Under the pieces are notes generated by a model. That model made no database searches and was not told where the DNA came from. It was given only the letters and a program-made list of their open reading frames with translations. Of a stretch of 64,000 nucleotides of DNA, positions 37,000 through 55,101 are shown piece after piece. Made by a program: the position numbers and the translations under genes. Within the stretch, counting starts at the first letter, position 1. Each line of letters begins with the position of its first letter. Source of the DNA: Mucinivorans hirudinis. Lineage in GTDB: Bacteria; Bacteroidota; Bacteroidia; Bacteroidales; Rikenellaceae. The stretch covers positions 1-64,000 of the forward strand of contig HG934468.1 of NCBI GenBank assembly GCA_000723505.1, read 5' to 3'.

Positions 37000-38175
37000 A
37001 TGATATCCATTCGTGTAAAACACAGACCATCAACCATCCCCAACAAGGAGGGAGTTATCTATTATCAACTTATTCATAATCGGGTAAGTAAACTCATAAA
37101 CACCTCATACAGGTTATACACTAATGAGTGGGATAAGGAAAATTCGATAATCAACATAGCCAAGGCGGGATACCACCGTCGGGCATATTTGCACAATATC
37201 GAAAATCAGATTCTTCGAGATATCAACAACCTCCAGAGAATCGCCACCCAAGGTGGCGACATCGCATCCGTAATAAAGGATTACTCCAGACTTGGTAAAG
37301 AAAATTTGCTATTTTGTTTTGCCGAGCGTATTGCCGGTGAATTAACGTCCCAAGGGCGGACAAAGAGTTCAATTTCGTACAAAACGGCATTGAGAAGTTT
37401 TTCGACATTTCGCAATGGAAATGACATAGCCCTTAGTGAAATAAAGCCCCCTATAATTAAGCAATACGAACAATATCTGCGTGCAAAACAGGTATGTAAC
37501 AACTCGGTTTCCTTCTATATGAGGATTCTGAGGGCTATCTATAATCGCGCCGTTGAAGAGGGTTTTTGCGAGCAATGTTTCCCATTCAAGGGCGTATATG
37601 TGGGCATAGATAAGACTATCAAACGAGCCGTCGAAGAAGATGTCATATCACGGCTCAAGGCGGCAGACTTATCCGATAGACGCAGAATAGAATTTGCGCG
37701 CGATATGTTTATGTTCAGTTTTTACACTCGCGGAATGGCGTTTGTGGATATAGCGCACCTGACACACGCCAATATCAAAGATGACTACATTGTCTATCAG
37801 CGACACAAGACCGGTCAGGAATTGATTATCAAAATAGAACCTTGCCTGAGGCATATTATTGCAAAATATAGCGATGCAGAGAGTAAATATTTGCTTCCAA
37901 TACTTACGGGAGAGAATCCGAATTATGAAAGCGCGCTACGACTACAAAATATACGCCTGAAAAAATTATCGGAATTACTGGGCTTGACCCCTCACTTAAC
38001 CTCTTATGTGGCACGACATAGCTGGGCTACTCTTGCCAAACGCAAGGGTGTCTCCACACAAATAATAAGCGAATGTATGGGACACAGCAACGAAAAAACC
38101 ACACTCATATATCTATCATCATTAGATCGCTCGGTCATCGACCAAGCTAATGCCAAACTACTCGCCGAAATATGA
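37000..38175 (+). CDS. Tyrosine recombinase (phage-integrase family)
   Basis: 391 aa of the Bacteroidetes integrase type. N-terminal arm-binding region (MISIRVKHRPS, YRLYTNEWDKE), SAM-like core-binding domain (about 105-205), catalytic domain (about 215-385). Catalytic residues: Arg in YTRGMAFVDIAHLTHA near 247, Lys in HKTGQE near 269, Arg of VARHSWATLAKRKG near 348, His of CMGHSNEKTT near 367, and Tyr of LIYLSS near 377. The segment before the second Arg reads SYVAR, not HxxR, which is common in this lineage. Upstream -7 box TAGCTTTG at 36970-36977. No att duplication or long invertible segment was found around it. Confidence 0.9.
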   Translation: MISIRVKHRPSTIPNKEGVIYYQLIHNRVSKLINTSYRLYTNEWDKENSIINIAKAGYHRRAYLHNIENQILRDINNLQRIATQGGDIASVIKDYSRLGKENLLFCFAERIAGELTSQGRTKSSISYKTALRSFSTFRNGNDIALSEIKPPIIKQYEQYLRAKQVCNNSVSFYMRILRAIYNRAVEEGFCEQCFPFKGVYVGIDKTIKRAVEEDVISRLKAADLSDRRRIEFARDMFMFSFYTRGMAFVDIAHLTHANIKDDYIVYQRHKTGQELIIKIEPCLRHIIAKYSDAESKYLLPILTGENPNYESALRLQNIRLKKLSELLGLTPHLTSYVARHSWATLAKRKGVSTQIISECMGHSNEKTTLIYLSSLDRSVIDQANAKLLAEI

Positions 38176-38372: not shown

Positions 38373-38960
38373 TCACACAATGGTTATATTATTGACTCCT
38401 ATGCAGTTCGGATTAAATCCAATCATTGCATTGATAAGCGATATTTTAGCATACTTAGTGAGCGAGTCGGGCGTGATGTCGGCTGTGGTGATTGTGCCCT
38501 CCTCTATCAGTCGGGCGCGGCAAGTTCCCGCAAGCAGTGGTTTTGCAGGGGTTACCCACCTGCTGCCGTCGAACAACACGATATTGGCAATGCCGGTATC
38601 AGTCAGTATGCCGTCACGAACAATCAGAATATCATCGCACTCCCCGCGTGTTTCGCGAAGTTTATCTATCGCTGAACGGTCTAGATACTTTTTATCGTAA
38701 CGAATCGAACCCCCGTCTACCAATTTAAGCGTCTCAAATAGCCGCACGGTATAGGGCGTAAGCTGATGCTCCACAATGCCTTCCGAGCTATATACAATTC
38801 GCAATTTGAAACACCCAGACTGCGGCAAACGTATGTTTTTTAAGTAGTTATCAAGATTAATACGGTTGCCGAGCACGCTCCGCGCAACGCGCTGTTGGTG
38901 GTAGTCAAGGTGGTGCACCCTACCCTGCTCCACTCGTATGGTCTCAAATAATAGGCACAT
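38373..38960 (-). CDS. pabC: Aminotransferase class IV, probable aminodeoxychorismate lyase
   Basis: 195 aa of the PLP class IV aminotransferase family: LFETIRVEQGRVHHLDYHQQRV at the N-terminus, YDKKYLDRSAIDKL near residue 100 with the PLP Lys, and LIVRDGILTDTGIANIVLFDG near 127. It is shorter than typical class IV enzymes (about 270 aa), as PabC-like proteins often are in Bacteroidetes. It is in operon order pabA-pabB-pabC, so it most likely releases 4-aminobenzoate from aminodeoxychorismate. It overlaps pabB by 17 bp. Confidence 0.85.
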   Translation of the reverse strand: MCLLFETIRVEQGRVHHLDYHQQRVARSVLGNRINLDNYLKNIRLPQSGCFKLRIVYSSEGIVEHQLTPYTVRLFETLKLVDGGSIRYDKKYLDRSAIDKLRETRGECDDILIVRDGILTDTGIANIVLFDGSRWVTPAKPLLAGTCRARLIEEGTITTADITPDSLTKYAKISLINAMIGFNPNCIGVNNITIV

Positions 38961-39912
38961 ATATTTTTGCTAATAATTCGGCATATTCCTCCTCAGCATT
39001 ACTCTGTGCAGTTATCCCGCCTCCGCTCCGAAAGTAATAATCACCCTGCGCACACTTCTCTATGTAGCGGATAATCACGCAACTATCCAACCCGATACCG
39101 TCATACACACCCATCACTCCGGTGTAGAACCCTCTCTTTGTCGGCTCCACCTCCTCGATAATCTCCATCGTCCGCACTTTGGGTGCACCACTGATGCTAC
39201 CCGCCGGCAAAACCCTCAAAATAATATCTCCGAGCCTCTCGCGCCAACGGTCATCCAACTTTCCGCTAATCTTTGAGCTCGTCTGAAACACTTTCCCATT
39301 TGCCGTTGTAATTGCTTCGGTATAACGAAACTTTTCGACCTCCACATCTCGCGAAATCATAGACAGGTCGTTACGAATAAGGTCTACTATGGTATGGTGC
39401 TCGCAAAGCTCCTTACAGCTCTCTATCAACGCTTTTTCATCTTTTGACGTACCCTTCATCGGGCAGCAACTAACAACATCATTTTCTATTCTCAAAAATG
39501 GTTCGGGAGAGTAAAATAGAAATTCATCCTCTATCATAAATTTATATCCGGCTCTCGAATTGAGATATATGCTACTCATATCCAAATCATTAACCAGACG
39601 TGATGCAAACGTCAGATTGAGCAGATAGCTATCTCCGTGGTGGATATGTTCCATCACGCGGTCGAAATATTTTTTGTAGTCATCAAACAAAATCGGCTCA
39701 ACTCTAAGATCAGTTTCGTGCGGGTCTGCCACCACTCTTCGTCCAATCTCCACACCATCAATCGCGCACGCAATTCCGTTGCTCGCCAACTCTGTGAGTT
39801 TTATCACCGCGCCTTTTTCCGCCTTATAATCAACAAGAAAAAGAAATGGTATCCGTGCAGCAGCGAGGTGATTTACCTGCTCACGAATCTGTTCACGGCT
39901 AATGTACTCCAT
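38944..39912 (-). CDS. pabB: Aminodeoxychorismate synthase component I
   Basis: 322 aa chorismate-binding enzyme: DSYLLNLTFASRL near residue 95, EDEFLFYSPEPFLRI, CCPMKGTSKDEKALIESCKE near 150, LRVLPAGSISGAPKVRTMEIIEEVE near 240 and GFYTGVMGVYDG. The KGT motif is the Thr-type seen in PabB enzymes. Overlaps with pabA (14 bp) and pabC (17 bp) indicate a compact operon for 4-aminobenzoate, the folate precursor. Confidence 0.93.
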   Translation of the reverse strand: MEYISREQIREQVNHLAAARIPFLFLVDYKAEKGAVIKLTELASNGIACAIDGVEIGRRVVADPHETDLRVEPILFDDYKKYFDRVMEHIHHGDSYLLNLTFASRLVNDLDMSSIYLNSRAGYKFMIEDEFLFYSPEPFLRIENDVVSCCPMKGTSKDEKALIESCKELCEHHTIVDLIRNDLSMISRDVEVEKFRYTEAITTANGKVFQTSSKISGKLDDRWRERLGDIILRVLPAGSISGAPKVRTMEIIEEVEPTKRGFYTGVMGVYDGIGLDSCVIIRYIEKCAQGDYYFRSGGGITAQSNAEEEYAELLAKIYVPII

Positions 39913-40459
39913 ACAAAAAATTGTTGATGATGCTCAATCCGTTTTCGGTAATATAAGATTCGGGGTGAAATTGCACGCCGCAAACCCGCTTGGTGATATG
40001 TTCTACGCCCATTATCAACCCCTTGTCATCCACCGCCGTCGCCCTAAGCTCCGCCGGCAGCAACTCCGCCACCCAAGAGTGGTATCTTCCGACAATCATT
40101 TCGTCTATACCATTAAATAGCAGCGAGTCAGGCTCGCATTTTATCTTTGTACCCACTCCGTGTGCGACAACAAGAAGGTTTCTTAGTTGCGCTCCATAGT
40201 ACTGACAAATAGCCTGATAACCAAGACATATACCCAAAATAGGTTTGGTGTGCTCATACCGTTTCAAAATCTGCTCCATAACCGGAAAATCCTGAGGAAC
40301 TCCCGCGCCGGGCGAAAAAATAACACGACTATAACACTCAACACACTCAATATCAAGGCTCTTACTATCTCTCACTTCAATCTCCTCACACGTTGCCCTG
40401 CCAATGAGCGCAACAAGGTTATAGGTAAATGAATCGTTGTTATCAACTAATAAAATCAT
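39899..40459 (-). CDS. pabA: Aminodeoxychorismate/anthranilate synthase component II (glutamine amidotransferase)
   Basis: 186 aa class I glutamine amidotransferase: ILLVDNNDSFTYNLVALIGR, SPGAGVPQDF, nucleophile Cys in LGICLGYQAICQYYGAQL near residue 77, and the His/Glu pair in CGVQFHPESYITENG near 165. With pabB and pabC adjacent it is PabA; use also as TrpG cannot be excluded. Confidence 0.93.
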   Translation of the reverse strand: MILLVDNNDSFTYNLVALIGRATCEEIEVRDSKSLDIECVECYSRVIFSPGAGVPQDFPVMEQILKRYEHTKPILGICLGYQAICQYYGAQLRNLLVVAHGVGTKIKCEPDSLLFNGIDEMIVGRYHSWVAELLPAELRATAVDDKGLIMGVEHITKRVCGVQFHPESYITENGLSIINNFLYGVH

Positions 40460-40585: not shown

Positions 40586-43500
40586 CTATTCTTCGATTAT
40601 CAATCGCAAGCCCACGTTCCAAACCTTTTGGTAGGGAACAAAGCCGCGACGCGATGCGACGGTCGCTTTCTTTGTGCGGTCATACCAAGAGCCACCCTTG
40701 ACAACCTTGCGCGTAGCATCAAAATCAGACTTAGTCCACTCAGCAACATTGCCGTTGATGTCATACAATCCCCAAGGACTCGGCTTATATGTGCCGCTTT
40801 CGCCCATCAACATTTTGCCATCATTAACAGACTCATCCTTAGGAATATAATTCAAATATGGATATATCGGGTCTGTCTTTTTCATCGGTTGTGGGTCTAC
40901 GCCCGACACTGCCATTTTGGTGAGATTCCAATCCGCAAGATTTTCATAAGGACTGAAATCCGTGTTTTTATTACCAAACCAGAAGTCCGAATCCGAACCT
41001 GCGCGTGCCGCCCATTCCCATTGAGCCTCAGTAGGTAATGTCGCTTTCAAGCCTGTCTTTTTACTCAAAAGGTCGGCATACTTCATTGCCTCGTCATAGC
41101 TGATTTTTGTTGCAGCATATTCGTCGTAGTTTACGTAGTAGCCGGGCGTTGTGTGGTCTTTCCAGAACTGACCGATATATCGGCTGTCGTGGTCGGCAAT
41201 CAATGCGCGCATTTGGGCATTGCTCACCTCTTTATCACTCATCCAGAAGCCTTTGGCAATCTTAACTTTTGCCGGCACTAACGTGCCGTTCTTGCCATTT
41301 CCGCCCATTACGTACTCGCCCGCAGGAATCCACACAAAGGTCATTGTCTGACCATTGCCCAGCTCCACAACCTTGGGAGCTTTGCCCGCGACCATTGCCT
41401 TAGCTTGTTCGGCATTAAATGGGAAGCCTTTTACCTTCACCTCCTTATACTTAACATCCGTTTTCGCAGGCATCACAGGCTCTATTTTAGGCTGAGTTGC
41501 AAGGTAAGCGGCATAATCGGCAATCTCTTTTTCCCAATCAATAGGCGCATTTGCATACTTGCGAGCCAACTCCAAGCGGCGCTCCTTTTGGTCGATAGTC
41601 TCGCCATTGAGAACCTTGTAAGGCGTTGCATCGAATGCCGAGCGATAAGGTACGTTGAAGTCTACCCAAGTTGTCAAACGCTCCCACTCCTTGGGTGTAA
41701 GCTCTACGCCGTGGTGTCCGTTGCGTAACATCTGAACCATCTCGCTATTGTCCACGTGGTATTCCATCGGGTTTAGCACAGCCATTTCAGCTTCCGGACC
41801 TTGGCGATAGAAGTATGGGTGGAACTGCAAGTAGCTCTTGCTAAAGAAGCGCGAACCAGCCCAGTCTGTAATAGTATCAATACGTCCGCCGGTGTAGTCG
41901 ATTCCTCCGGCTTTGCGTTCGCCATTATGGCAAGCAACACAAGCACGGTCGAGTATAGGCTGCACCTCCATCTCGAAGGTAAAGGGGCGAATGCCACCCT
42001 CGGGAACTGTTATCGCATGAGGCTTTTTCGTCGAAGCCAATGTACGCCTTGGAATTGGGATTTGGCTTTGGTCCTCGTGGCAACCTACGCAAGATACAGT
42101 CTCGCCGGGCTGTCCGGTAATCCAACTACGCATCCACTGAATCGCCGCCCCGTTTTCGTCCAACGGCTGTAGCGAAATGGGAGTGTTGGCAGGAATCTTG
42201 AATATAGCCGAGCCATCCTCTTCGACCTTCACGCGCCCCAACTCGCGCTTAATATCCCAACCGGCTTGAATACCCTGAGCAAGATGGTCGGAAAGTGTGC
42301 GTAAATATGCAAATTCATAAGCAAATACGCGCAACTCTTTAACCTTACCACGAGGCACACCCTTCAAACCTTCACCCTCATAAATATCTTGAATAAAGAC
42401 AGTTGCCTCCTTGTCAGCCTTACTCAAGTCCATAGGAACACGCTCGGGGATAATGGGGGGTGTTTGGCGCTTAACCAAAGGTATGGCATTTATCAGACCT
42501 TCGCCCTCATATTCGGCAATAAGTTGCATATTATCAAATACATCGACAAGATATATACCCCAAAGCGACTTGGGCGACAACTTAGCCGTAACCAAGAAAT
42601 ATTTGTCATTAATCGGCTGAGGCTTTATAAATTGAGGCCACACATCGTCCACGAGTCCGTCTTTCACCAAGGGCACTATTTCGCGCTTGCCGAAAGGAAT
42701 CTCCTGCACCATACCATCCACACCCTTGCGTCCTTTGTTTATGTCGAAGAGAATCAAGCGCCCCGAACGCACAACACCGTGGTGACCGGTAATAATTCCA
42801 AGGAAAGCACTACTGCTACCCGGAATTGGTGCAAGGTCATAGGTTGAGTTTGGGAAAAGCGAACCGCTACCATAAAACGCCTTATTCTCAGTGCCGTCAG
42901 GGTTCATATTCATAACGATACGTGAGTAGTAGTGCATCAGGTCGGTGTATTCCCAGCGGGTATAGAGCACTCTACCATTAGCCATTACCGTTGGATGCCA
43001 GTTGTTCTCTTGGTCGAAACATATGCGGCGCATATCGCTGGTCTTAGGGTCGAACAGAGCGAAGTTACCCACAGCATCAGAGCCATTTACGCACGGTACG
43101 CCGTGATAACCTAGGTTTGTATTTACGATAAGTTTACCGCTGGGCAGATAGCCGGCATCAAAAAATTCGAGGTCGCTATCCTTGAAAACGGTGAGTTGTT
43201 TCGCTTTTCCGCCTTTTGTGGGTACTTCAAAAACTTGGAAGTGTCTGAGCGAGTCTTGCGAGGTGAAAATCATACGGTCGCCGTCCCAGTGAAGTTGAAC
43301 ATCGGTAACAACATAGTCTTTCTCGGGCTTATATATTTGGCGTTTTTGGAGCTCATTTCCTCGTAGATTCGATAACTCCACAATCTCGCCATCGAATCCG
43401 CTACGCGCTGCCGATAACTGACAAGACCAGTTATTAGGTTGGGTACCAAGCGAGTGAGGATTTACGCTACGCGCCCTATTTCCAAGTTGATAACGCGTAA

Positions 43501-44563
43501 CAATGATTTTGTCGAAGTCCAACACCGGATTCGCCAACAGAATCTCTTTTTTAAGAGCCAAAGCGCGTTGTGCATTCGCTATAGACTTGGCATCTATCTT
43601 ATTAACTCCCTCAAATCCGGCTTTAGCCAACGCCTGCAATTCTGCATATTTCTCTTGATACTCCTTGCCAAGTTTTGCATCCTTTAGTGCTGCGCCAATA
43701 GCATCGACATTGAGCCACGACAACTGCTCTTGCAGAGCAACAACCTCGTTAGCCTGCTTGATAAGAGCCACAAACCCTTCTAACTGAGCAGCTTTATCTG
43801 TCAATTTATCCAACGCGGCAGCTTTTTCAGTAAAGTATGATTTGTTTGAAATAGAGGCTATTGCCTTTTTCAAGGCTCCATTTTCGATAATAGTTCCGGG
43901 CGTAGTGAGCCAATCTTCCAGAGGCACACCAAAGTTTGCCAATATTATTTGCACACTCTCCGGCGCCGACTTTCTGAGCATAGCAGCCTCCTCTTGTCCA
44001 CTGGTAGGCAGCACTTTGAATACAGCTGAACCGCCCGACGAACCTTCGTCAATACCGATTGAAGCCTCGAAGCGGTCGTAGTCACCGTTTGTTAAATCTA
44101 CAATCAGAGTGCTATTTGCGTGCGCCAATACCCCGCGATTAAAAGTCTCATCACGCAGGCGGAATTTTTTGCCCGAAAAGTTTTTATTAAGGCTAAACCA
44201 ATCACTTTCAACTCGTTTGTACTTAAACTTTGTCTCATCAAGCCACTTAACAGTTCCATCTTTTTTTATAATTTTGGCATCTGCCCAAACAGCGTGGTCA
44301 TAATCCACACCATCTTCGGTAGCCCAAGTCACGAGCACCAACTCTTTTAGCCCTTTTAGGTTGATATTAACTTTTCCCGGAGCTTTGCCTCGTTTGTAAA
44401 CATCCGACACAAAAGGAAGTCCCGCAACCGAAGTTGCCATCGTCTTCTCTTTGGCAGACAGAGCCTTATCAGCCCAACTTTGCGCAGGAGGCGGTGAACC
44501 CTTCTTTTGTGCCGCACTCGCAAGTGTTGCCACCGCAAGCATTGCAATTAATAGTCTTTTCAT
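40586..44563 (-). CDS. Exported multidomain protein: NPCBM, HzsA-like propeller, two c-heme motifs, SUMF1-like
   Basis: 1325 aa with a signal peptide (MKRLLIAMLAVATLASAAQ). Domains: an NPCBM-like carbohydrate-binding region (about 50-195; FSLNKNFSGKKFRL, GVLAHANSTLIVDL); a coiled region (200-340); a beta-propeller of the HzsA-related type (about 350-760; NWHPTVMANGRVLYTRWEY, MNPDGTENKAFYGSGSLFPN); two heme c motifs, CVGCHEDQ near 825 and CVACHNGERK near 874; and a formylglycine-generating-enzyme/SUMF1-like domain (about 1080-1325; FVWIPAGEYVMGGNG, LPTEAQWEWAARAG, DINGNVAEWTKSD, VVKGGSWYD, NVGLRLI). Proteins of this layout are known from Planctomycetes and Bacteroidetes but not characterised as far as I know. 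It ends a minus-strand cluster with DhaK/DhaL. Confidence 0.85.
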   Translation of the reverse strand: MKRLLIAMLAVATLASAAQKKGSPPPAQSWADKALSAKEKTMATSVAGLPFVSDVYKRGKAPGKVNINLKGLKELVLVTWATEDGVDYDHAVWADAKIIKKDGTVKWLDETKFKYKRVESDWFSLNKNFSGKKFRLRDETFNRGVLAHANSTLIVDLTNGDYDRFEASIGIDEGSSGGSAVFKVLPTSGQEEAAMLRKSAPESVQIILANFGVPLEDWLTTPGTIIENGALKKAIASISNKSYFTEKAAALDKLTDKAAQLEGFVALIKQANEVVALQEQLSWLNVDAIGAALKDAKLGKEYQEKYAELQALAKAGFEGVNKIDAKSIANAQRALALKKEILLANPVLDFDKIIVTRYQLGNRARSVNPHSLGTQPNNWSCQLSAARSGFDGEIVELSNLRGNELQKRQIYKPEKDYVVTDVQLHWDGDRMIFTSQDSLRHFQVFEVPTKGGKAKQLTVFKDSDLEFFDAGYLPSGKLIVNTNLGYHGVPCVNGSDAVGNFALFDPKTSDMRRICFDQENNWHPTVMANGRVLYTRWEYTDLMHYYSRIVMNMNPDGTENKAFYGSGSLFPNSTYDLAPIPGSSSAFLGIITGHHGVVRSGRLILFDINKGRKGVDGMVQEIPFGKREIVPLVKDGLVDDVWPQFIKPQPINDKYFLVTAKLSPKSLWGIYLVDVFDNMQLIAEYEGEGLINAIPLVKRQTPPIIPERVPMDLSKADKEATVFIQDIYEGEGLKGVPRGKVKELRVFAYEFAYLRTLSDHLAQGIQAGWDIKRELGRVKVEEDGSAIFKIPANTPISLQPLDENGAAIQWMRSWITGQPGETVSCVGCHEDQSQIPIPRRTLASTKKPHAITVPEGGIRPFTFEMEVQPILDRACVACHNGERKAGGIDYTGGRIDTITDWAGSRFFSKSYLQFHPYFYRQGPEAEMAVLNPMEYHVDNSEMVQMLRNGHHGVELTPKEWERLTTWVDFNVPYRSAFDATPYKVLNGETIDQKERRLELARKYANAPIDWEKEIADYAAYLATQPKIEPVMPAKTDVKYKEVKVKGFPFNAEQAKAMVAGKAPKVVELGNGQTMTFVWIPAGEYVMGGNGKNGTLVPAKVKIAKGFWMSDKEVSNAQMRALIADHDSRYIGQFWKDHTTPGYYVNYDEYAATKISYDEAMKYADLLSKKTGLKATLPTEAQWEWAARAGSDSDFWFGNKNTDFSPYENLADWNLTKMAVSGVDPQPMKKTDPIYPYLNYIPKDESVNDGKMLMGESGTYKPSPWGLYDINGNVAEWTKSDFDATRKVVKGGSWYDRTKKATVASRRGFVPYQKVWNVGLRLIIEE

Positions 44564-44581: not shown

Positions 44582-45481
44582 TTATTCGGCAAATGGATAG
44601 ACCGCAGAAACGTTCACCGAGAATGGGCGGTTTCGATAGCTCCACACCAAATTTTTCGCTGCATCGAACTCAACAATCTGTAAATCAGCGCAATCAGGCG
44701 CAACGTGTCCGAGCCAGTTGGTCGCAATAATATTACCATTAGGCAACATCGCCGCACCAGCCACAAATTGGAACTTGGCACCGTCTACATCATTTTGCGC
44801 CAATTTCGTTGTTGCTTCGCCCGTGGCACGGTCAATCTCCACCAAGGAGTGAGAATCACCACACGAAACCAATAAGTTGCCATTATCCAACTCAATCAAT
44901 GAGAATGGCACAGTACCCTCTCCACAAGCGTACTCTTTGACCAATTCGCCCGCATCGTTAATCTCGATAACTTTGCTCTGAGTGATTACCGGAATGAGAT
45001 AGTTGCCGTTTTTTGCCTTACTGACAACGCGAAACTGAGCGTGAGGATTAGGAATATTAATCTCATATTTCACCTCTTTCACAGGTATTCCGTTCATATC
45101 CAACTCTTCAATCAACAGAGGGTTGTCACAGGTTGCCACCATAAAGTTACCGTTTGCCAACTGCACAGCCGTTTGCATCTCAGCACTATCGTTTTTGGTT
45201 TTGTAGTCCCATATCATCAACCCATTTCTATCAATCAATCGCGCGCCTTTCTTATAAGAGAAAAGTATGTCTCCATTTTTCGTAAGACTGATTGTGTTAC
45301 ATTCCGGTCTGCCGCTCTCGGTTGGTAGCGCCATAGCCCACTCAACATTTTGGGTGGCTTTGTCGATGATTGCTATCGAATCCCAATAGGAACCGGCGAT
45401 TAACAGTTTTTCGGTAGGTTTGGGAGCAGTCGAGCAGCCAATCATCGTCACTGCCGCCGCCGCAAGTATAATTTTTTTCAT
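44582..45481 (-). CDS. Beta-propeller lipoprotein
   Basis: 299 aa with a lipobox (MKKIILAAAAVTMIGCSTAPK). Repeating WD/PQQ-like blades: LLIAGSYWDSIAIIDKATQNVEWAM, GDILFSYKKGARLIDRNGLMIWDYK, GNYLIPVITQSKVIEINDAGELVKEY, GNLLVSCGDSHSLVEIDRATGEATTK, GNIIATNWLGHVAPDCADLQIVEFDAAKNLVWSY. It is probably surface- or periplasm-facing. 18 bp upstream of the 1325-aa gene, so they are likely co-expressed. Confidence 0.8.
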   Translation of the reverse strand: MKKIILAAAAVTMIGCSTAPKPTEKLLIAGSYWDSIAIIDKATQNVEWAMALPTESGRPECNTISLTKNGDILFSYKKGARLIDRNGLMIWDYKTKNDSAEMQTAVQLANGNFMVATCDNPLLIEELDMNGIPVKEVKYEINIPNPHAQFRVVSKAKNGNYLIPVITQSKVIEINDAGELVKEYACGEGTVPFSLIELDNGNLLVSCGDSHSLVEIDRATGEATTKLAQNDVDGAKFQFVAGAAMLPNGNIIATNWLGHVAPDCADLQIVEFDAAKNLVWSYRNRPFSVNVSAVYPFAE

Positions 45482-45556: not shown

Positions 45557-46426
45557 TTACAAATCATTAAACATCTCAAACGCTTGCGCAGGGGTCAGTC
45601 CATCGTGCACCACTGCCGACACAGCTTGAATCATCGCCTCGGGTTTGCTGCTTTGGAAAACGTTGCGCCCCATATCAACGCCTGCAGCACCCTCATTGAT
45701 AGCCTTGTAGCACAAATCAAGCGCCTCCAACTCTTCGAGTTTTTTTCCGCCGGCAATCACAATGGGTACGGGACAGGCATTAACAACCTTTTCAAAGCCG
45801 TCACAGTAGTAGGTCTTTACAATGTTAGCACCATTCTCTGCCGCAACGCGCGAAGCCAAACCGAAATACTTAGCATCGCGTGCCATCTCCTTACCCACAG
45901 CCGTAACTCCCATCGTGGGAATACCATACTTGTAGCCATAATCGGCAGCCTGCACCAAGTTTTTGATGGTTAGAGCCTCGTATGTTCCTCCCATAGAAAT
46001 CATTACAGCCATCGCCGAAGCGTTCAGTCGTACCGCATCCACAATATCAATCAGGCACTCGTTATTGAGTTCCGTAAGAATCGACGAGCCTGCCGAGTAT
46101 CGCAAACATATCGCCTTGTTCGAGTCGGCAGGTACTACCGAGCGTAACGAACCGCGTGTACACATCAGCGAGTCGGCATATTTTATAAGCGGTACAATGC
46201 CAAGGTCTAAGCGTTCCAAACCCGAAGTCGGACCCATAATATAGCCGTGGTCAAACGCCAACATTACAGTACGACCGGTTGCGGGGCGGAAAATGCGTGC
46301 CATCCTATCGCGCAAACCCCAGTCCGTACCATCCAACCCTTTCAAAAAGTATGATTTAGTTTCAACGGGTATACCAATTCCGTAATCTTTATCCTTGTTT
46401 TCAAGGATTCCATCCATATCTGCCAT
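45557..46426 (-). CDS. LsrF/DhnA-family class I aldolase
   Basis: 289 aa from ATG 46426 (MADMDGILENKDKDYGIGIP). It is strongly similar to E. coli LsrF, the AI-2 thiolase: KGLDGTDWGLRDRMARIFRPATGRTVMLAFDHGY near residue 30, LMCTRGSLRSVVP near 87, GANIVKTYYCDGFEKV near 203 with the Schiff-base Lys region, VPIVIAGGKK near 222 and GAAGVDMGRNVFQS near 250. No Lsr transporter or LsrK kinase is here; the neighbours are DhaK and DhaL, so a phospho-triose or phospho-tetrulose substrate is more likely. A reading start at 46486 would add an atypical N-terminus. Confidence 0.88.
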   Translation of the reverse strand: MADMDGILENKDKDYGIGIPVETKSYFLKGLDGTDWGLRDRMARIFRPATGRTVMLAFDHGYIMGPTSGLERLDLGIVPLIKYADSLMCTRGSLRSVVPADSNKAICLRYSAGSSILTELNNECLIDIVDAVRLNASAMAVMISMGGTYEALTIKNLVQAADYGYKYGIPTMGVTAVGKEMARDAKYFGLASRVAAENGANIVKTYYCDGFEKVVNACPVPIVIAGGKKLEELEALDLCYKAINEGAAGVDMGRNVFQSSKPEAMIQAVSAVVHDGLTPAQAFEMFNDL

Positions 46427-46431
46427 TATAT

Positions 46432-46672
46432 TTAGTTTTTTCGTTAATCTTTTTGTGTTCTCTGTAAGCTTGATACTTAGATGCAAACCCTATGGTTATG
46501 GACATTACTATCCAATAGATAAGTTTTGAAATAAATACTTTAAATTAAATTTAAGATTATCTTTCATAAAATAATCGAACACTATAGTAAAAAATGTAGT
46601 TAAAGACCCGAATATCAATCCATCAAGCCACTAGAACTTTCTTTGGATTTGATAGTCTTTTTCAGTTTTCAT
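46432..46672 (-). pseudogene. Decayed small membrane-protein gene, copy B
   Basis: Conceptual pieces: MKTEKDYQIQRKF, stop, frameshift, GLIDGLIFGSLTTFFTIVFDYF, NLKFNLKYLFQNLSIG, stop, IVMSITIGFASKYQAYREHKKINEKTKY. It is a diverged duplicate of the copy directly upstream (46662-46929), with at least two frame breaks. The ATG overlaps the end of that copy. Confidence 0.7.
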
Positions 46673-46929
46673 TCTTTTCTCTGTTATTGTTAATCTTTTT
46701 GATATGTTCTTGGGCACTATACTTATAGTAAAGCCCCATACTAAAAGCCATAATTATCCCATAGAGAAACTTTGAGATGAATAGCTTTGAACTAATCTCA
46801 AAATTCTCTGTAAAGTAAGTATTCAAATATCAGTGAAGTAAATGATACTATAAAGCCAAAAATCAATCCGTCAAACCACCATTTTTTTTGGCGCTGATAA
46901 TCTTTTTCGGGAGGTTTCCGACACCACAT
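46662..46929 (-). pseudogene. Decayed small membrane-protein gene, copy A
   Basis: It reads MWCRKPPEKDYQRQKKWWFD, GLIFGFIVSFTSLIFEYLLY, then needs a one-base shift (near 46812-46820) to continue ENFEISSKLFISKF, LYGIIMAFSMGLYYKYSAQEHIKKINNNREKNEN and a stop. Two membrane segments are predicted. Copy B follows in tandem. Both lie in the 511-bp gap between dhaL and the aldolase gene. Confidence 0.7.
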
Positions 46930-46937
46930 ATCTCGTA

Positions 46938-47555
46938 CTATAAAGCACCTGCGAAACTCTCAAACATTGAAGCCCAAGAGGTTGCACCTGCATCTGGGTG
47001 TCCAATAGTCTTGTCACCAAGGTTGCGAGCACGTCCGAAGTTTGCCTTCATATTAACGGTAGCCTCCACACCCTTCAATGCAGCATCTGCGCCGACTCTC
47101 AAAACCTCATTAATATCATTTGATTGACAAGTCTCGATGGCTTCAACTGCCGGAATCAGAGCATCCATCATCGTTTTGTCTCCAATCGCAGCCTTGGTGT
47201 TTTTTTGGACTCCCAACAACCCACCCGCAAACATTTTTTTCAACTCGTCAGCGTCAATCTCCTCAGCAGCAGGCACATTATCCGACATTCCGAGCAGGAA
47301 TCCGCCAAGCAGCGTAGAGGTTGAACCACTTGTTTCCAGCATCACGGCGAAACCCATATCTCCCAATAACCCTTTGAAGTTTCCACCCTTTTCAGATGCC
47401 CTTGCAATTACCTTGAAAGCTGTTTCGATAGCCTCGCCGTGGTCGCCGTCACCCAGAGCCGCATCAAGTTTTGAAAACTCTTCGGCACGACTCTTAATAT
47501 TAGTATAGGCCGCCCCAATCATTCGCTGGAAGTCGGCAATCGTTATTTTTTCCAT
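46938..47555 (-). CDS. dhaL: Dihydroxyacetone kinase L subunit (ATP-binding domain)
   Basis: 205 aa from ATG 47555 (MEKITIADFQRMI). DhaL motifs: LGDGDHGEAIETAFKVI near residue 34 (Mg/nucleotide Asp residues), GGFLLGMS, and AAIGDKTMMDALIPAVEA near 110. It transfers phosphate to a triose bound in DhaK. No PTS phosphotransferase (DhaM) is in the window, so ATP is the likely donor. An earlier start at 47603 adds 16 atypical residues. Confidence 0.93.
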   Translation of the reverse strand: MEKITIADFQRMIGAAYTNIKSRAEEFSKLDAALGDGDHGEAIETAFKVIARASEKGGNFKGLLGDMGFAVMLETSGSTSTLLGGFLLGMSDNVPAAEEIDADELKKMFAGGLLGVQKNTKAAIGDKTMMDALIPAVEAIETCQSNDINEVLRVGADAALKGVEATVNMKANFGRARNLGDKTIGHPDAGATSWASMFESFAGAL

Positions 47556-47639
47556 ATTAGTGGTGTGAGTAATAAGGTGATATGGGCGGATTCCGGAAGG
47601 CAAACAGAAGCTTCAAATCCACCCATATCACTCTAAAAT

Positions 47640-48644
47640 TTATTTCCGTGTCCAATAAGGTGCGTTTGAAGGATAATTTTTGAGATAATCTACGTGGTCG
47701 TCATCCAACTTAGCAAGAATCATTTGGAAGCCGGCCTGTTCCTGTACTGTAAGCAACTCACCGGCATAACCATCAACAATAACCGCACCCGCCGACTCTA
47801 GGTACTTAGCTGCCGCACGATATACGATTAGCTGCTCCATAAGTGTCGAAGAACCAACGCCATTGATGTAAAGCACAACCTTTTCACCCGCTTTTACATC
47901 GAGTTTTTTCATCAACATCGACACCATAAATTCCGCAGTAGCGTCAGCCGAGACCAATGGTTGAGCACCACCCGAACCAGCCTCACCGTGCTGACCCATA
48001 CCAACTTCCATCATACCATCGGGTAGTTCAGTAATGGTTGCGCCATTTTGTGGGTGGGTGCAAGCACGCATCGCCACAGCCAGCGTGGCAATGTTTTTGT
48101 TCAGACGCTCGCCAATCTCCATAAGCTCATCGAGAGACTTACCCTCTTCGGCAGCCGCACCCAGAACTTTATACATAACAACTGCTCCGGCAAGTCCACG
48201 ACGGTCGTCGTCCGCAGCATCCAGACCTGCCGAAATGTCATCGTGCGTCATAATAGAGGCAACTTTAATACCCATACGCTCAGCGAGTTGCTTCGCCATA
48301 TTACCGCTCATCACATCGCCTGAGTGGTTGAGAATCAGCAATAGAATACCCGCAGGGCGTTGCATCATTTGAATACCTTGGAAGAGACGTTGCGCACCCG
48401 GTGCAGCAAAAATATCACCCACGACCGAACAGTCCAACATACCTTCGCCAACAAAGCCGCTCACGGCAGGTTCGTGTCCCGAGCCGCCGAAAGCCACGAT
48501 AGCAACCTTATCTTGAGACTTTGGATTAGCGCGTACCACGATATTTTCCGCACCAAGTTTTACTTGGTCTTTGAATGCCATCACATACCCTTCCAAAAGT
48601 TCAGCGGTGATGTTATTAGTTTCGTTTATGAATTTTGTTTTCAT
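47640..48644 (-). CDS. dhaK: Dihydroxyacetone kinase K subunit (substrate-binding)
   Basis: 334 aa: KVAIVAFGGSGHEPAVSGFVGEGMLD near residue 47, LLILNHSGDVMSGNMAKQLAERMG near 100, HDDISAGLDAADDDRRGLAGAVVMYKVLGAAAE near 130, and GMMEVGMGQHGEAGSGG near 205 with the His that covalently holds dihydroxyacetone-like substrates. Paired with dhaL 84 bp downstream. The true substrate may be dihydroxyacetone or a tetrulose; sequence does not say. Confidence 0.94.
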   Translation of the reverse strand: MKTKFINETNNITAELLEGYVMAFKDQVKLGAENIVVRANPKSQDKVAIVAFGGSGHEPAVSGFVGEGMLDCSVVGDIFAAPGAQRLFQGIQMMQRPAGILLLILNHSGDVMSGNMAKQLAERMGIKVASIMTHDDISAGLDAADDDRRGLAGAVVMYKVLGAAAEEGKSLDELMEIGERLNKNIATLAVAMRACTHPQNGATITELPDGMMEVGMGQHGEAGSGGAQPLVSADATAEFMVSMLMKKLDVKAGEKVVLYINGVGSSTLMEQLIVYRAAAKYLESAGAVIVDGYAGELLTVQEQAGFQMILAKLDDDHVDYLKNYPSNAPYWTRK

Positions 48645-49128: not shown

Positions 49129-49824
49129 TTATAATTTAGCTTTAGGATTAGTAAATCTCAGACCCGCACCGTCGTGGTAGTTTGCCCATTCGTGAACAAT
49201 AGCACCATTTTCGCCCGCAAGCAGGAAGTGCCAGCTGCCAATTTTACCCAAGTGGATAATGTCGCCAACATTCTGAACCACATAGTTTTTAGACTTTGTA
49301 GTAGCAAGTTGTGACGCAGGAATGATTTTCTCAGCGTCGGCTTTAGGCTCACCCAACTCAGTAAAATTGTAGCACGAACCATTGCGTACCATCCAAGTTT
49401 CCATCTTTGCGGGGAATTTCGTGGCAACGTGCGAATGTTCAGGAATCATCTGACCGGGAAGCAGATAGATGTCGTGAGCAAAATATCCTGCTTCGGGGTC
49501 ATTCACAAAAAAGATACCTCCCATACCGCAATTTTCGAAATCACCCATACCAAAGTCGGTATACCACGCCTCTTTTTCAACAAAGTCGGTTACAGGATAA
49601 CCATAATACTCAAACATTTCATAGAACGCTTTCTTTGCTACTTCAGGTTGAAAAACGCCATCCTTATAGAAATCGGCGTTGGTGTACTTTTTGGTGTAGG
49701 GAGCTTTCATCTCTTTTTCACATTTGGTTTGATTCTCTTTTTCGCAGCAATCCTTCTCTTTTTTGCTCTCACAGGCGAAGAGCATCGTTGATGCAACACA
49801 CAATAGAACTAGGTTTTTTTTCAT
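49129..49824 (-). CDS. Cupin lipoprotein, D-lyxose isomerase-like
   Basis: 231 aa; lipobox in MKKNLVLLCVASTMLFACESKKE, then a Lys/Glu/Cys-rich linker. The cupin core has LLPGQMIPEHSHVATKFPAKMETWMVRNGS (HxH and Glu ligands) and GDIIHLGKIGSWHFLLAGENGAIVHEW (second His). This pattern resembles D-lyxose isomerase-like cupins, so a sugar-isomerase role at the cell envelope is possible. The lipid anchor is unusual for such an enzyme. Confidence 0.75.
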   Translation of the reverse strand: MKKNLVLLCVASTMLFACESKKEKDCCEKENQTKCEKEMKAPYTKKYTNADFYKDGVFQPEVAKKAFYEMFEYYGYPVTDFVEKEAWYTDFGMGDFENCGMGGIFFVNDPEAGYFAHDIYLLPGQMIPEHSHVATKFPAKMETWMVRNGSCYNFTELGEPKADAEKIIPASQLATTKSKNYVVQNVGDIIHLGKIGSWHFLLAGENGAIVHEWANYHDGAGLRFTNPKAKL

Positions 49825-49894: not shown

Positions 49895-51028
49895 TCAACA
49901 TTGCGCCACACCCTCAATCTCTATCAAAAGCTCATCTCGACAAACATCCGTAACAACGTATATTGCAGGCAAATGCGGGTAACGCTCTTCGATAATTCGC
50001 CGTGCCGCTTCCATATCGCCGTCACACTTCAAATATACGCGGAACACCTGGATCTGAGGCTCGTTACGCACCGTAATCCCGTGGTTAGCAAAGTTTTTCT
50101 TGCTTATCAGATACTCTATATTTTCTAGGGTTATCACCGTCTGCCGTTCGATGCCTACACCCGTTAGGCTCTCCTCACCTCTGATTGCCGCCGTACCCGA
50201 TATATAGACCTTGGCGCAATCATAAATAGCCACCGCCTTTGCCCTCTCAAACTTTGGCGTTGTCCGCTGTTTGAAAACCTCATCCGGAGCACCAATCAAC
50301 ACACCCTGCGAATACTTATGTGCAGCCACCTGCAGCGGATTATCAATCGGCACAATCTTTGCCGGCGATTTTTTTAAAACTTCAGCATCAATCTCCACCA
50401 TCACACCTCCCACGTCCGTGCCTATCCCCGTAGCTGCCGGGTAACCTCCCCTCCACTCCGTTTTTGCATAAAAGTGTGAACGAGCATCGTTAAAATCCTG
50501 ATAATGTTGGGTGTCGCCTGACATAGCCGTAATCTGCTCAATATAGTTCCACTGACGAATTATCGAATCAATGGGCATTTTTTCTTGTTCCAAAATAGCC
50601 TCCAATTTGGCAAGAACATCAACAGATTGCTTGCGAATTGAATCGCTCAGAAAATCTGCAACAATTCCCTCCGTAAAAAGTTGCTTACTGCTACTGCTAT
50701 TGCTCACCACATACCTAACACCACCTAACTCTTTATATTGCAATGTCTTTGCAAAATCCCGACCAACCATCTGAACCTCTAACGCAAGTGTTAGCTGCGT
50801 TGGGTGTTGCGCGACATAGCTAATGAGTGGAGTAAATTCTCCTGTGCAGTTTTTTATAATTTCTTCGCGTTGCTCGCCATACTCCTTGTTCGAGTGTGGT
50901 TTTCCATAAAAGACCCAGCGCAGAGGCACTAACTCCGTGCTCTTGGCGGCAGCCACCAATTCAGCCAACGCTCCACTGAAAGTGGGCTTTGTACTCCTAT
51001 ATATATTGTATAGTATGTTGTGAGCCAT
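49895..51028 (-). CDS. RidA/chorismatase-like protein
   Basis: 377 aa. The C-terminal quarter (about 285-375) resembles RidA/YjgF (VFRVYLKCDGDMEAARRIIEERYPHLPAIYVVTDVCRDELLIEIEGVA). The upstream half has FNDARSHFYAKTEWRGGYPAATGIGTDVGGVMVEIDA, as in chorismatases of the FkbO/Hyg5 type, which share the RidA-like fold. The usual active-site residues cannot be confirmed by eye, so a reaction is not assigned. 81 bp separate it from the upstream cytochrome gene. Confidence 0.7.
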   Translation of the reverse strand: MAHNILYNIYRSTKPTFSGALAELVAAAKSTELVPLRWVFYGKPHSNKEYGEQREEIIKNCTGEFTPLISYVAQHPTQLTLALEVQMVGRDFAKTLQYKELGGVRYVVSNSSSSKQLFTEGIVADFLSDSIRKQSVDVLAKLEAILEQEKMPIDSIIRQWNYIEQITAMSGDTQHYQDFNDARSHFYAKTEWRGGYPAATGIGTDVGGVMVEIDAEVLKKSPAKIVPIDNPLQVAAHKYSQGVLIGAPDEVFKQRTTPKFERAKAVAIYDCAKVYISGTAAIRGEESLTGVGIERQTVITLENIEYLISKKNFANHGITVRNEPQIQVFRVYLKCDGDMEAARRIIEERYPHLPAIYVVTDVCRDELLIEIEGVAQC

Positions 51029-51109: not shown

Positions 51110-52876
51110 TTATAAGCTGTTTACGTATTCCACCAATTCGTCTATCTCTTTCGAGGTAATTTTCTTAGTTATGCCGTGTCTGTGCACCTCGAAAACATCG
51201 CGCATCGTAGCCGCTCTGCCATCGAAAAGATAAGGAGCAGTGCGCCAAACCTCTCTCAGAGTAGGAGTGTCCCAACCAGCCTCAAACTCAATATCTTCGC
51301 CAATTCTATACATCTTCATATCCGTATAGTAGATGCCCGAGTGGCAGTTGTCGCACTCGAATTTTTCAAACACTTTGCGTCCGCGCTCTGCCTTTTCCGA
51401 CAGCTTGCCATTGACCAAATAGGGACTCGGTACAGGTTGCAAACCCTTCGTATACTCATCCACCCACGTTGCCCACTCCTCGGGAATTTCGTAGAACTGT
51501 ATATGTGTAAACCCCTTACGATTTGCAATTTCCGCCGAAGCACGAATTCCTGAAATCATCGAGGGGGGGGTCTGTATAGAGAATAGCAGACTTTTGCAGT
51601 TTTTGGGATTGCCAATGCCGTCATTCATCAAATCCCAGTTCATACCATCCGTGCGCCCGTCGCCGGGGTGACAACCATTGCACGACTGCCAATTTTGGAA
51701 ACAGTACTGCGCATCATTAAAAATACGCTCACCGCGCTGCGCAAGGGTCTCAGTTCTATTCGCATTGAGATTAACGGAACTCAATTCATCACCTCCCAAA
51801 TCATAAATATTGAGTATATCTGCAAAATATGTAGGAATATAGGCTTTGTTATCGATTATCGAAAAGTTACGAGGCCCGTTTCCCTTCAGCGGAATGCGTT
51901 TGCGAAGTCCGTACATAAATCGCAAGTCATACGCCAATGTCTCTACTGAACCTTTGTAGTTGGTCAGTTTTTCGATAAATTTGGGGTAGTTAATAACGCT
52001 AATATCGTGTGTACCACTGTGAGTTACAATTATATTTTCGGGCGTTGTTTGTATTCCCCAAATTCCTGCTGCGCCACGATCAGGGTCATCAAGCACCACA
52101 GCACCTATGTAATTATGTGTTGCAACATCGATTACACTCATTGCAGAGGTATTCATCCACCCCTGCTGCAACTGTGAGGTGGGAACCGTAAAGCGCCCAA
52201 GATTATGAGAAACAAGAACATACTTTCCATCGGCAGTAAGAGCCATTCCTCGCAAGGCGTTGCTGCCGTTGGCTAGTTTTATGTTTTTTTCTACCGTGAA
52301 GTTTGAAAGGTTTATTATTGACACCTCCGCTGCAACATATTCTAAATTAGCCTGTCCGGCAGGAAGGAAGTTTGCCACAAAGAGATATTTGCCATCCGCA
52401 CTGGCTACCGCGGCTTTGGGTTCGCGGGTTACAATCACCCTGCGAAGCACCTTGCCCTGTTTAGGGTCAATTTCGCTCACTGCATTTTCAAACTGATTCA
52501 TTAGCAGTATTTTACCCCCAAGCACGATAGGAGCGATAGGATAGTGCCCCACAGGAATAGATTTTTCTATCGTTCCATCGGCAGAAATTACAATAAGTTG
52601 TCCGTCAGCATCTGCTGTGGTTACAAATATCTTTTTACCATCGGTGGTTATGCCCGAGGGAGTCTGTTGCAGAGAAACTCTTTTTTTTATTGTTTTGCAG
52701 TCAGATGAAACAAAATCCACACTCTTTGCACCCGCTTGAGCGAGGGCAAAGCCTCCATTTGAAGAAACCATACCTACGTTATAGAGTGGAGGATGCGCTA
52801 TATTTTGCGCTCCGGAATAGCTGTAAACAGCAATTAGGCAGACCGTTACCGCCAATCTAGGTAGTAGTTTTATCAT
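51110..52876 (-). CDS. Exported beta-propeller / di-heme cytochrome protein
   Basis: 588 aa from ATG 52876, which begins a signal peptide (MIKLLPRLAVTVCLIAVYSYSGAQ). The N-terminal half is a YncE-like propeller (IFVTTADADGQLIVISADGTIEKSI, AAVASADGKYLFVANFLPAGQ, LTADGKYVLVSHNLGRFTVP). The C-terminal half has heme motifs CNGCHPGDGRTDGMNWD near 400 and CDNCHSG near 510, plus a C-terminal Met/His region, as in di-heme cytochrome c peroxidase (MauG-like) proteins. An ATG at 52909 would lengthen it by 11 residues. Likely periplasmic electron transfer or peroxidase-like oxidation. Confidence 0.85.
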   Translation of the reverse strand: MIKLLPRLAVTVCLIAVYSYSGAQNIAHPPLYNVGMVSSNGGFALAQAGAKSVDFVSSDCKTIKKRVSLQQTPSGITTDGKKIFVTTADADGQLIVISADGTIEKSIPVGHYPIAPIVLGGKILLMNQFENAVSEIDPKQGKVLRRVIVTREPKAAVASADGKYLFVANFLPAGQANLEYVAAEVSIINLSNFTVEKNIKLANGSNALRGMALTADGKYVLVSHNLGRFTVPTSQLQQGWMNTSAMSVIDVATHNYIGAVVLDDPDRGAAGIWGIQTTPENIIVTHSGTHDISVINYPKFIEKLTNYKGSVETLAYDLRFMYGLRKRIPLKGNGPRNFSIIDNKAYIPTYFADILNIYDLGGDELSSVNLNANRTETLAQRGERIFNDAQYCFQNWQSCNGCHPGDGRTDGMNWDLMNDGIGNPKNCKSLLFSIQTPPSMISGIRASAEIANRKGFTHIQFYEIPEEWATWVDEYTKGLQPVPSPYLVNGKLSEKAERGRKVFEKFECDNCHSGIYYTDMKMYRIGEDIEFEAGWDTPTLREVWRTAPYLFDGRAATMRDVFEVHRHGITKKITSKEIDELVEYVNSL

Positions 52877-53042
52877 AATAGCGTGGGTTAGTTTACTACT
52901 AAAAAACACTACAATTTTACAAAAAATTGGCGAAATACCAAAATTTTTTAATAATATTCTTTTTATAAAGAGAACTTAGCGGACAAATAGGGCTGCTTTT
53001 ATTCCCTTAAATCCTCTAAGTTCTCAAGTAGGTAGATGGTAA

Positions 53043-53702
53043 CTACATAAACCTCATTCTGCCGAAATATTGTGGCTGGTGGAAGTTAGGTTTATCTGTT
53101 TTAATGGGGCTCCACGATAGGTAGTGCGGCTTGCTCAGTCCATCCCCACATTTATAGACGTTTGCCATAACAAACAGCCCCTCAAGAGTATTAAAGTTGT
53201 GGGCAAAGAAAGCCTCTTTTGGAATTGCCACAGTAAGTTCCCACTCCACGTCGCCCAACCGTTCTGCAAAGCACTCGTTGGGCAGGGTAGAGAGGCTCTT
53301 TATTTTGTCCAAAATCTCCGTTGGGGCGTGGGTAGCTAAATCACGACTCTGGCGAAAGCCAAGCAACTTTTTGCCGATACAGGAGAATTCAAAATTGTAG
53401 TAGCCGGTATCGTCAAAACTTATAAAGAACTCTACACAAGAGTCTTTCCATACCTCACCACCATCCTTATCTACTTCAGCCTTAATATCATCCTCCTTGA
53501 CCTGAAACTTCAAAAAGAGGGTGGCATCGTTGTGAACAGCCCAAAATTTTGCGGATGGGGCATAGGGGTATTCCCCCGCCCAGTTGTTGTTGAAAATGCC
53601 GCCCCATTCAATCTTCAAATAGTCATCTTCGACCATAGAAGAGATGGCTTCCAAGGGAGGCTCAATCGCATATATGCGTTTGATATTTAGATGATTTGCC
53701 AT
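53043..53702 (-). CDS. CBM9-like (carbohydrate-binding family 9) domain protein
   Basis: 219 aa, no signal peptide. DYLKIEWGGIFNNNWAGEYPYAPSAKFWAVHNDATLFLKFQVKEDDIKAEV and WKDSCVEFFISFDDTGYYNFEFSCIGKKLLGFRQSRD fit the CBM9-like domain that often stands alone in Bacteroidetes; WELTVAIPKEAFF and YLSWSPIKTDKPNFHQPQYFGRMRF complete it. It is the first gene of the minus-strand cluster. Ligand unknown. Confidence 0.8.
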   Translation of the reverse strand: MANHLNIKRIYAIEPPLEAISSMVEDDYLKIEWGGIFNNNWAGEYPYAPSAKFWAVHNDATLFLKFQVKEDDIKAEVDKDGGEVWKDSCVEFFISFDDTGYYNFEFSCIGKKLLGFRQSRDLATHAPTEILDKIKSLSTLPNECFAERLGDVEWELTVAIPKEAFFAHNFNTLEGLFVMANVYKCGDGLSKPHYLSWSPIKTDKPNFHQPQYFGRMRFM

Positions 53703-53728
53703 TTTATTAAGTGAAAAATGAAAAGTAA

Positions 53729-53775
53729 AAAATGAGTAATGAAACGTAAAAAATCATTTGCCGATTACTCATTTT
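53729..53775. repeat. Inverted repeat AAAATGAGTAAT upstream of the CBM9-like gene
   Basis: Perfect 12-bp arms (53729-53740 and 53764-53775) within a tract of AAAATGA/GTAAAAA microrepeats. The 233-bp gap 53703-53935 holds nothing else apart from the palindromic half repeat at its right end. Confidence 0.65.
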
Positions 53776-53930
53776 GAGAAACTGTTAGAATTTTCAATTT
53801 TGCTTTTATTACTCCCCATTCAAGTCATATTTCCCCTTTTGATATAGGAGTAGGGGGTAGTCAAGCTCGCTCGAAATATCCGAACCAAGTGAGAGCAGAG
53901 ACCGCTTAAGGGATGTTCCCGACAATGATG

Positions 53931-53956
53931 ATTTACTAATTTTCAGAAGACCCCTT
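53931..53956. repeat. GGGGGCTTCT repeat family, half copy (copy 5), inside a gene end
   Basis: ATTTACTAATTTTCAGAAGACCCCTT. Read on the minus strand it encodes the last residues KGSSEN and the TAG stop of the sugar-kinase gene. The same arm occurs at 30025. Confidence 0.8.
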
Positions 53957-55039: not shown

Positions 55040-55070
55040 AATTTTTTTATTGATTGATATTTGGTCACAA

Positions 55071-55101
55071 CAAAGATATTATTTTTTTGTAAAGATTCAA
55101 A
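55071..55101 (-). promoter_or_regulatory. Promoter of the NahK-like kinase gene
   Basis: Minus-strand TTTG (complement of 55098-55101), 19 bp, TATCTTTG (complement of 55071-55078): exact consensus, about 30 bp before the ATG at 55039. Confidence 0.85.

Follow-up and report, generated by a model that had tools for sequence, protein, structure and literature searches.

The first 64,000 nucleotides (nt) of contig HG934468.1 of Mucinivorans hirudinis (assembly GCA_000723505.1), the whole of which is called the window here, encode an exported protein of 1325 amino acids (aa) that is best read, from its sequence and predicted structure, as the large alpha subunit of a periplasmic redox complex that contains c-type hemes and shares ancestry with hydrazine synthase (HZS). 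Hydrazine synthase is best known from anammox bacteria and has been regarded as almost confined to them, and its evolutionary origin is debated. The homology of both chains of the complex, their linkage across phyla, their co-inheritance, the conservation of the hemes and the loss of specific residues were established by computation, and there is high confidence that the HzsA-like alpha chain and its HzsBC-like partner make up an HZS-related complex.

The open reading frame (ORF) of the alpha chain, proposed in an initial annotation of the sequence, is real and lies on the minus strand (table 1). The four domain calls made for it (NPCBM, HzsA-like, diheme, and SUMF1-like) were all confirmed by hidden Markov models (HMM), and all but the NPCBM also by an AlphaFold2 model. 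The chain is predicted to consist of a signal peptide (residues 1–18, MKRLLIAMLAVATLASA), the NPCBM (~30–200), a helical linker (200–345), the HzsA core (350–980) and the SUMF1-like domain (1060–1325), with the signal peptide and the outer limits of the NPCBM set by inspection. Pfam matches above the curated cut-offs cover the NPCBM (residues 106–185, E = 2.9e-22, 79.6 bits against a cut-off of 23.9), the HZS_alpha middle domain (739–830, E = 1.6e-37) and the FGE-sulfatase/SUMF1-like domain PF03781 (1075–1322, E = 7.5e-28). The structural model was built on 57 relatives and took in residues 350–1325 (mean pLDDT 92.0, pTM 0.90); the NPCBM lies outside it and rests on the HMM, and sugar binding by this domain is predicted. 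Residues 350–980 of the model align with the alpha subunit of hydrazine synthase (5c2v_A, Z = 33.2, 564 of 768 residues, root mean square deviation 3.0), and the comparison thus points to the three-domain HzsA fold across its whole length. The initial annotation had recognized an HzsA-like propeller, which is correct as far as it goes; the likeness is wider and includes the heme-I middle domain (CVGCH, 825–829, within the HZS_alpha match) and the cytochrome domain (CVACH, 875–879, with His950 as the candidate distal histidine). Both heme motifs are invariant across 57 aligned relatives.

The C-terminal part of the model matches PvdO (5hha, Z = 27.4) and the formylglycine-generating enzyme FGE (Z = 23.5) and shares its fold with the SUMF1 family (FGE, PvdO, and GldK). 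The cysteines of the 1325-aa protein are found at positions 381, 491, 515, 825, 828, 875, and 878, with none after 878 and none in the SUMF1-like domain. The copper-site cysteine pair, the presence of which the initial annotation had left to be checked, is therefore absent. FGE-like copper chemistry of the formylglycine type was rejected for this domain, which contains neither a cysteine nor a copper site and is nearer to the cysteine-less PvdO/GldK/SUMF2 type, and the missing cysteine pair leaves a SUMF1-type oxidation of a peptide without support.

A gene 6.5 kb upstream encodes a fused HzsB-HzsC-like subunit, which the initial annotation had missed together with the conserved operon and which changes the interpretation of the alpha chain. 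Since both genes are present, all three hydrazine synthase subunits have relatives at this locus. The best-scoring model for the fused protein is the NCBIfam beta-gamma fusion model of hydrazine synthase (E = 1.1e-31), and a profile built from its family retrieves HzsB (3.8e-33) and HzsC (1.4e-31) in the PDB. In the reverse direction, the profiles of the alpha and BC families find the authentic anammox HzsA, HzsB, and HzsC (1e-38 to 1e-30 and 7e-50 to 1e-36, respectively). The best solved match to the structural model of the HzsBC-like protein is HzsB (5c2v_B, Z = 38.9 compared with 30.3 for the runner-up); its Foldseek matches are dominated by propellers, and the di-heme part was therefore judged by profile and not by fold. 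By profile, this gamma part resembles the di-heme cytochrome c peroxidase (CCP) and MauG, with which it shares the di-heme arrangement, but it scores 26.7 bits with the MauG equivalog model (cut-off 443.85) and differs in its fusion to an HzsB-like propeller and in the conservation of His578 at the distal position of heme gamma-II, as in HZS. The two heme sites of the protein are CNGCH (410–414) and CDNCH (519–523). Two extra cysteines, C403 and C438, are located on either side of the gamma-I heme motif; C438 (KNCKSL) is kept in the clade of operons with a long HzsA and not in the sets with a short HzsA described below, and might form a heme or disulfide link specific to that clade.

The comparison with anammox HzsABC (5c2v) reveals a likeness in the whole alpha fold, the beta propeller, the di-heme gamma part, the four CxxCH sites, the bis-His heme gamma-II, and the location of alpha and beta-gamma genes in one operon. 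Both gamma CxxCH sites and the two heme gamma-II histidines (His229 and His332, corresponding to H523 and H578 in the window) are kept in all 36 aligned relatives, and the equivalents of Trp117 and Asp118 are largely or wholly kept. Tyr591, the proximal ligand of the active-site heme alpha-I in hydrazine synthase (PMC12607021), is found in 9 out of 9 anammox sequences but in none of the 57 relatives, and is a serine in the window protein. GammaCys165, which forms the third thioether, and gammaAsp168 are found in every anammox sequence compared but fall into gaps in all 36 relatives, Glu122 of gamma is replaced by Asp in all 36, and Cys303 is also absent from the window system; no reading was drawn from the region near gammaHis144, where the alignment is uncertain. 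The window system differs further by carrying beta and gamma as one chain, by the added NPCBM and SUMF1-like domains, and by an operon that contains DhaKL, LsrF, and cupin genes and not anammox genes. As judged from these alignments, the scaffold and the electron-transfer heme have been retained, and the features connected with the making of hydrazine have been lost.

A true hydrazine synthase, which would place anammox-like nitrogen chemistry in gut Bacteroidota, could be argued from the representation of all three subunits and the conservation of the four c-heme sites. However, this was ruled out, its probability being put at next to nil, as Tyr591, gammaCys165, and gammaAsp168 are absent, the scores with the NCBIfam hydrazine synthase equivalog models are far below the cut-offs (alpha 40.1 compared with 800 bits, beta-gamma 109.8 compared with 1250 bits), and, in a quick tree with long branches, anammox HzsA splits off as a deep clade of its own. 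A search of the M. hirudinis genome for octaheme HAO/HDH with PF13447 gave no match, but neither did the control genomes.

Homologues of HZS with a co-located alpha and a fused beta-gamma gene have been described in four clades (I–IV) within the Planctomycetota, Desulfobacterota, and others (Hagglund et al. 2025, PMC12758564), and the system in the window resembles them, as far as the main text of that study describes them, in the fused beta-gamma chain, the co-location and the loss of Tyr591. According to the same text, FG-GAP/CRTAC1 or ABC-transporter genes neighbor the homologues in clades I–III and no such genes do in clade IV, co-location outside the Planctomycetes–Verrucomicrobia–Chlamydiae (PVC) group is limited to a few species (Syntrophobacter, Paludibaculum), and Bacteroidota contain beta-gamma homologues but no co-located alpha. 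The main text does not link HZS homologues to NPCBM, SUMF1, DhaKL, or LsrF, and literature searches for a link between LsrF, DhaK, and Bacteroides or between HZS and the gut returned nothing relevant. The SUMF1-fused alpha lineage in several phyla, its NPCBM-bearing form in the Bacteroidota, and the conserved operon of DhaKL, LsrF, and cupin genes, which extends to gut commensals, appear to be new.

Table 1. Genes of the HZS-like operon in the window.
Feature	Coordinates	Strand	Basis
HzsA-like alpha subunit, 1325 aa	40586..44563	minus	ORF, Pfam, AlphaFold2 model
Lipoprotein beta-propeller, Mala_s_1-like (PF22701)	44582..45481	minus	E = 7.4e-66; syntenic in relatives
LsrF-like class I aldolase/thiolase	45557..46426	minus	NF006081, 436.7 bits (cut-off 297); E. 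coli LsrF 3glc, E = 8.9e-103
DhaL-like kinase subunit (Dak2)	46938..47603	minus	E = 1.5e-39; conserved in family
DhaK-like kinase subunit (Dak1)	47640..48644	minus	E = 1.9e-93; GMGQHGE motif with substrate-binding His
VOC-like small protein, 105 aa	48808..49125	minus	Named by inspection; syntenic in 30 homologues
Exported lipoprotein cupin, D-lyxose/D-mannose isomerase kind	49129..49824	minus	7nzo, E = 5.4e-10; 2y0o, E = 2.2e-8
FkbO/Hyg5-type (type-II) chorismatase-like protein	49895..51028	minus	Catalytic Glu and type-II Cys
Fused HzsB-HzsC-like subunit, seven-bladed propeller and di-heme domain	51110..52909	minus	NF052342, profiles, model

The alpha gene begins 18 nt downstream of the lipoprotein beta-propeller gene. 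The true start of the LsrF-like protein is probably the methionine of MADMDG, at residue 21 of the ORF as listed, which is also where its alignment to 3glc begins. LsrF is the 3-hydroxy-5-phosphonooxypentane-2,4-dione thiolase of autoinducer-2 (AI-2) catabolism, and the substrate known for it is, when numbered as a ketose, a 2,4-diulose 1-phosphate. The protein in the window exceeds the equivalog cut-off and retains the Schiff-base lysine region (VKTYY, aligned to IKTYY in LsrF), but in contrast to AI-2 catabolism the kinase partner is DhaKL and not LsrK, and a periplasmic heme complex and a cupin are present. Pfam returned no match for the 105-aa VOC-like protein. The homologues of the cupin carry lipoprotein-like or Tat-like N-termini. 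In the chorismatase-like protein the motifs DvCR and LLiEiEg are conserved in 26 homologues and, aligned to 5ag3, supply the equivalents of Cys327 and Glu334, the type-specific and catalytic residues of type-II chorismatases (PMC7170507). The protein is predicted to be a 3-hydroxybenzoate synthase and scores 128 bits with the NCBIfam model, below the cut-off of 325.

The operon is tightly packed except for a gap of 511 nt between dhaL and lsrF (46427–46937), which contains at least two diverged repeats of ~246 nt that resemble remnants of a small-protein gene that had been duplicated. Genes resembling pabA, pabB, and pabC (by inspection) follow directly downstream of the alpha gene on the same strand (38373–40459). 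They are not conserved at this position in relatives and were rejected as operon members, as were the CBM9, NahK-like, and GT4 genes upstream (53043–56418). Together with the chorismatase-like gene and a DAHP synthase gene beside HzsA in two other loci (L089 and L098), the pab genes hint at a link to chorismate. ORFs for an IS110-like transposase (30204–31133) and a tyrosine recombinase/integrase (37000–38175), both named by inspection, are located ~10 kb or less from the 3' end of the operon. No known family of structured RNA scored above threshold in the region.

The nine-gene block recurs in other Rikenellaceae, Rikenella microfusus, Millionella, Bacteroides cellulosilyticus, B. clarus, and Parabacteroides, and its genes are found in shuffled order in Hydrogenedentes, Verrucomicrobia, Akkermansiaceae, and one planctomycete. 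A Parabacteroides distasonis record labelled as a plasmid carries the order IclR–HzsBC–chorismatase–cupin–HzsA–CcsBA–VOC–DhaK–DhaL–LsrF–propeller–MFS–GH130, and an Aureibacter plasmid carries HzsA, HzsBC, DhaKL, and LsrF. Among 61 genomes, LsrF and the cupin were each found in 14 out of 15 genomes with a long HzsA and in none of the 46 without (Fisher P = 6.7e-13 for each), and within the bacterial family the fused heme-attachment protein CcsBA was found in 12 out of 14 HzsA-bearing genomes compared with 2 out of 23 others (P = 3.8e-6), with all P values treating genomes as independent and ignoring phylogenetic relatedness. The gene for CcsBA adjoins HzsA in many loci. In a scan of 88 neighboring proteins, IclR regulators (14) and CcsBA (12–13) were the most common, and other families included PCMD (4), GH130 (3), sulfatase (2), DAHP synthase (2), GH88, GH3, and SusD. 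HZS_alpha and SUMF1 occur together in all 66 relatives tested, from several phyla, and an NPCBM is present in 22 out of 32 Bacteroidota relatives. The combination of domains in one exported chain, as the initial annotation had it, is thereby confirmed but not one of a kind, and a one-off fusion was ruled out; the NPCBM is mainly a Bacteroidales addition to the HzsA–SUMF1 chain. In the annotated records examined, the genes go by the names “SUMF1/EgtB/PvdO family nonheme iron enzyme”, “YncE family protein”, “c-type cytochrome”, or “hypothetical”, and given these generic names they have likely been overlooked or mislabelled.

The alpha chain has a binding module at either end, the cupin is exported and resembles sugar isomerases, and the kinase and the aldolase, both cytoplasmic, act on hydroxyketones and on diketones resembling ketose phosphates; with these parts, a catabolic route is the simplest model. 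The HZS-like complex would be an oxidoreductase, with an oxidase or a dehydrogenase as the likeliest kind and with electrons leaving through heme gamma-II, and its substrate would be a carbohydrate-derived compound held by the NPCBM and SUMF1-like modules. The cupin may then isomerize the product, which would enter the cell, where DhaK and DhaL would phosphorylate the hydroxyketone and the LsrF-type enzyme would cleave the phosphorylated compound to dihydroxyacetone phosphate (DHAP) and an aldehyde or acyl-CoA. That the complex supplies the oxidoreductase step of a DhaKL/LsrF route is given an even chance. A fuller proposal can be made only tentatively: a periplasmic heme-dependent oxidative sugar-degradation pathway in which the complex makes a keto-sugar and LsrF cleavage yields DHAP and acyl-CoA, common to human-gut Bacteroides/Parabacteroides, Verrucomicrobia, Hydrogenedentes, and Planctomycetes. 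In one version of the catabolic route, considered unlikely, oxidation of an aldose at C4, isomerization at C1–C2, and phosphorylation at C1 would produce a longer homologue of the LsrF substrate. The oxidase acting on a surface glycan or peptide that the initial annotation suggested is plausible but unproven for carbohydrate, given the NPCBM, the SusD, GH130, and GH88 neighbors, the cupin, and DhaKL/LsrF.

Besides the disregard of relatedness in the co-inheritance statistics, several observations weigh against the catabolic route. The carbohydrate-related neighbors are scattered, with no recurring glycosidase and few of the 88 proteins in carbohydrate families. Relatives with a short HzsA and HzsBC (e.g., L074) lack DhaKL/LsrF, indicating that the complex also works in another setting, and in one member, from Puteibacter, the place of DhaKL/LsrF is taken by an FGGY kinase, DeoC, and dehydrogenases. 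The model does not account for the chorismatase-like enzyme, and the gene for this enzyme and the DAHP synthase beside HzsA misfit pure sugar catabolism. Finally, the direction of the reaction (oxidation or reduction) and the substrate of the complex are putative.

Three other functions were weighed against the catabolic route. The strong LsrF equivalog, and the 196 bits (below cut-off) that the FGGY kinase in the kinase slot of Puteibacter reaches with the AI-2 kinase model, would fit a module for scavenging AI-2, 4,5-dihydroxy-2,3-pentanedione (DPD)-like or dicarbonyl compounds, in which DhaKL would stand in for LsrK and the VOC-like protein for LsrG, LsrF would keep its role, and the heme complex would be an associated redox enzyme that serves detoxification in the periplasm. 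Such a module is improbable, as neither an LsrB/LsrACD transporter nor the LsrG family was seen in the scans of these operons, DhaKL is not LsrK, and the exported cupin and the tight HZS-like linkage have no counterpart in AI-2 catabolism. The resemblance of the gamma part to CCP/MauG, the reduction of nitric oxide (NO) by HZS gamma-I (PMC12607021), and the occurrence of short HzsA–HzsBC operons without sugar genes support a periplasmic peroxidase or an NO/hydroxylamine-reducing protective complex, in which gamma-I would reduce a small toxic compound and the presence of the sugar genes would be incidental. This also has a low probability, since the co-inheritance with LsrF and the cupin is strict, gammaCys165 and gammaAsp168 are absent, and the ligand is expected to be large, given the NPCBM and the SUMF1-like domain.

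A biosynthetic system would convert chorismate to 3-hydroxybenzoate, which the heme complex would join to, or oxidize with, a DHAP-derived fragment to give a secreted small molecule or redox mediator. It draws on the conserved type-II chorismatase residues, on an FkbO-like gene that also accompanies a short HzsA set (L074), on the DAHP synthase that adjoins HzsA in two loci and on the pabABC-like genes in the window. With a conserved core that lacks ligase, nonribosomal peptide synthetase/polyketide synthase (NRPS/PKS), and export genes, a chorismatase gene that is missing from several operons (L087, L095, L107, and L138), and SusD/GH neighbors that favor catabolism, it is also improbable. The operon suggests that obligate gut anaerobes employ a redox step with c-type heme when they use carbohydrates. 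A three-subunit relative of HZS in a conserved operon that spans several phyla and occurs in P. distasonis, a common gut commensal, offers a genetically approachable system for studying the role of the scaffold before or besides hydrazine.

The second, shorter form of HzsA (~742–893 aa) has no SUMF1 or NPCBM coverage and is located beside HzsBC in four loci (L074, 7955–14946; L077; L078; L079); the set in L074 also contains a chorismatase-like gene and an iron alcohol dehydrogenase. In the Puteibacter locus (L122, 1117–13201) the HzsA-like gene is accompanied by the FGGY kinase, the DeoC aldolase, short-chain dehydrogenases, a zinc alcohol dehydrogenase, a nucleoside/MFS symporter, and a cupin; this alternative form of the pathway may help to show to which class the substrate belongs. 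HZS_alpha paralogues are expanded in an Akkermansiaceae bin (33 matches), in Planctomycetes CA13 (14), and in a Hydrogenedentes bin (12), the genomes of loci L131, L138, and L114 (G062, G061, and G064, respectively). In one further locus (L065, 12539–16594, genome G059) the alpha gene is split into ORFs of 708 and 638 aa by an in-frame stop in the HzsA core at approximately residues 711/718, before the HZS_alpha middle domain.

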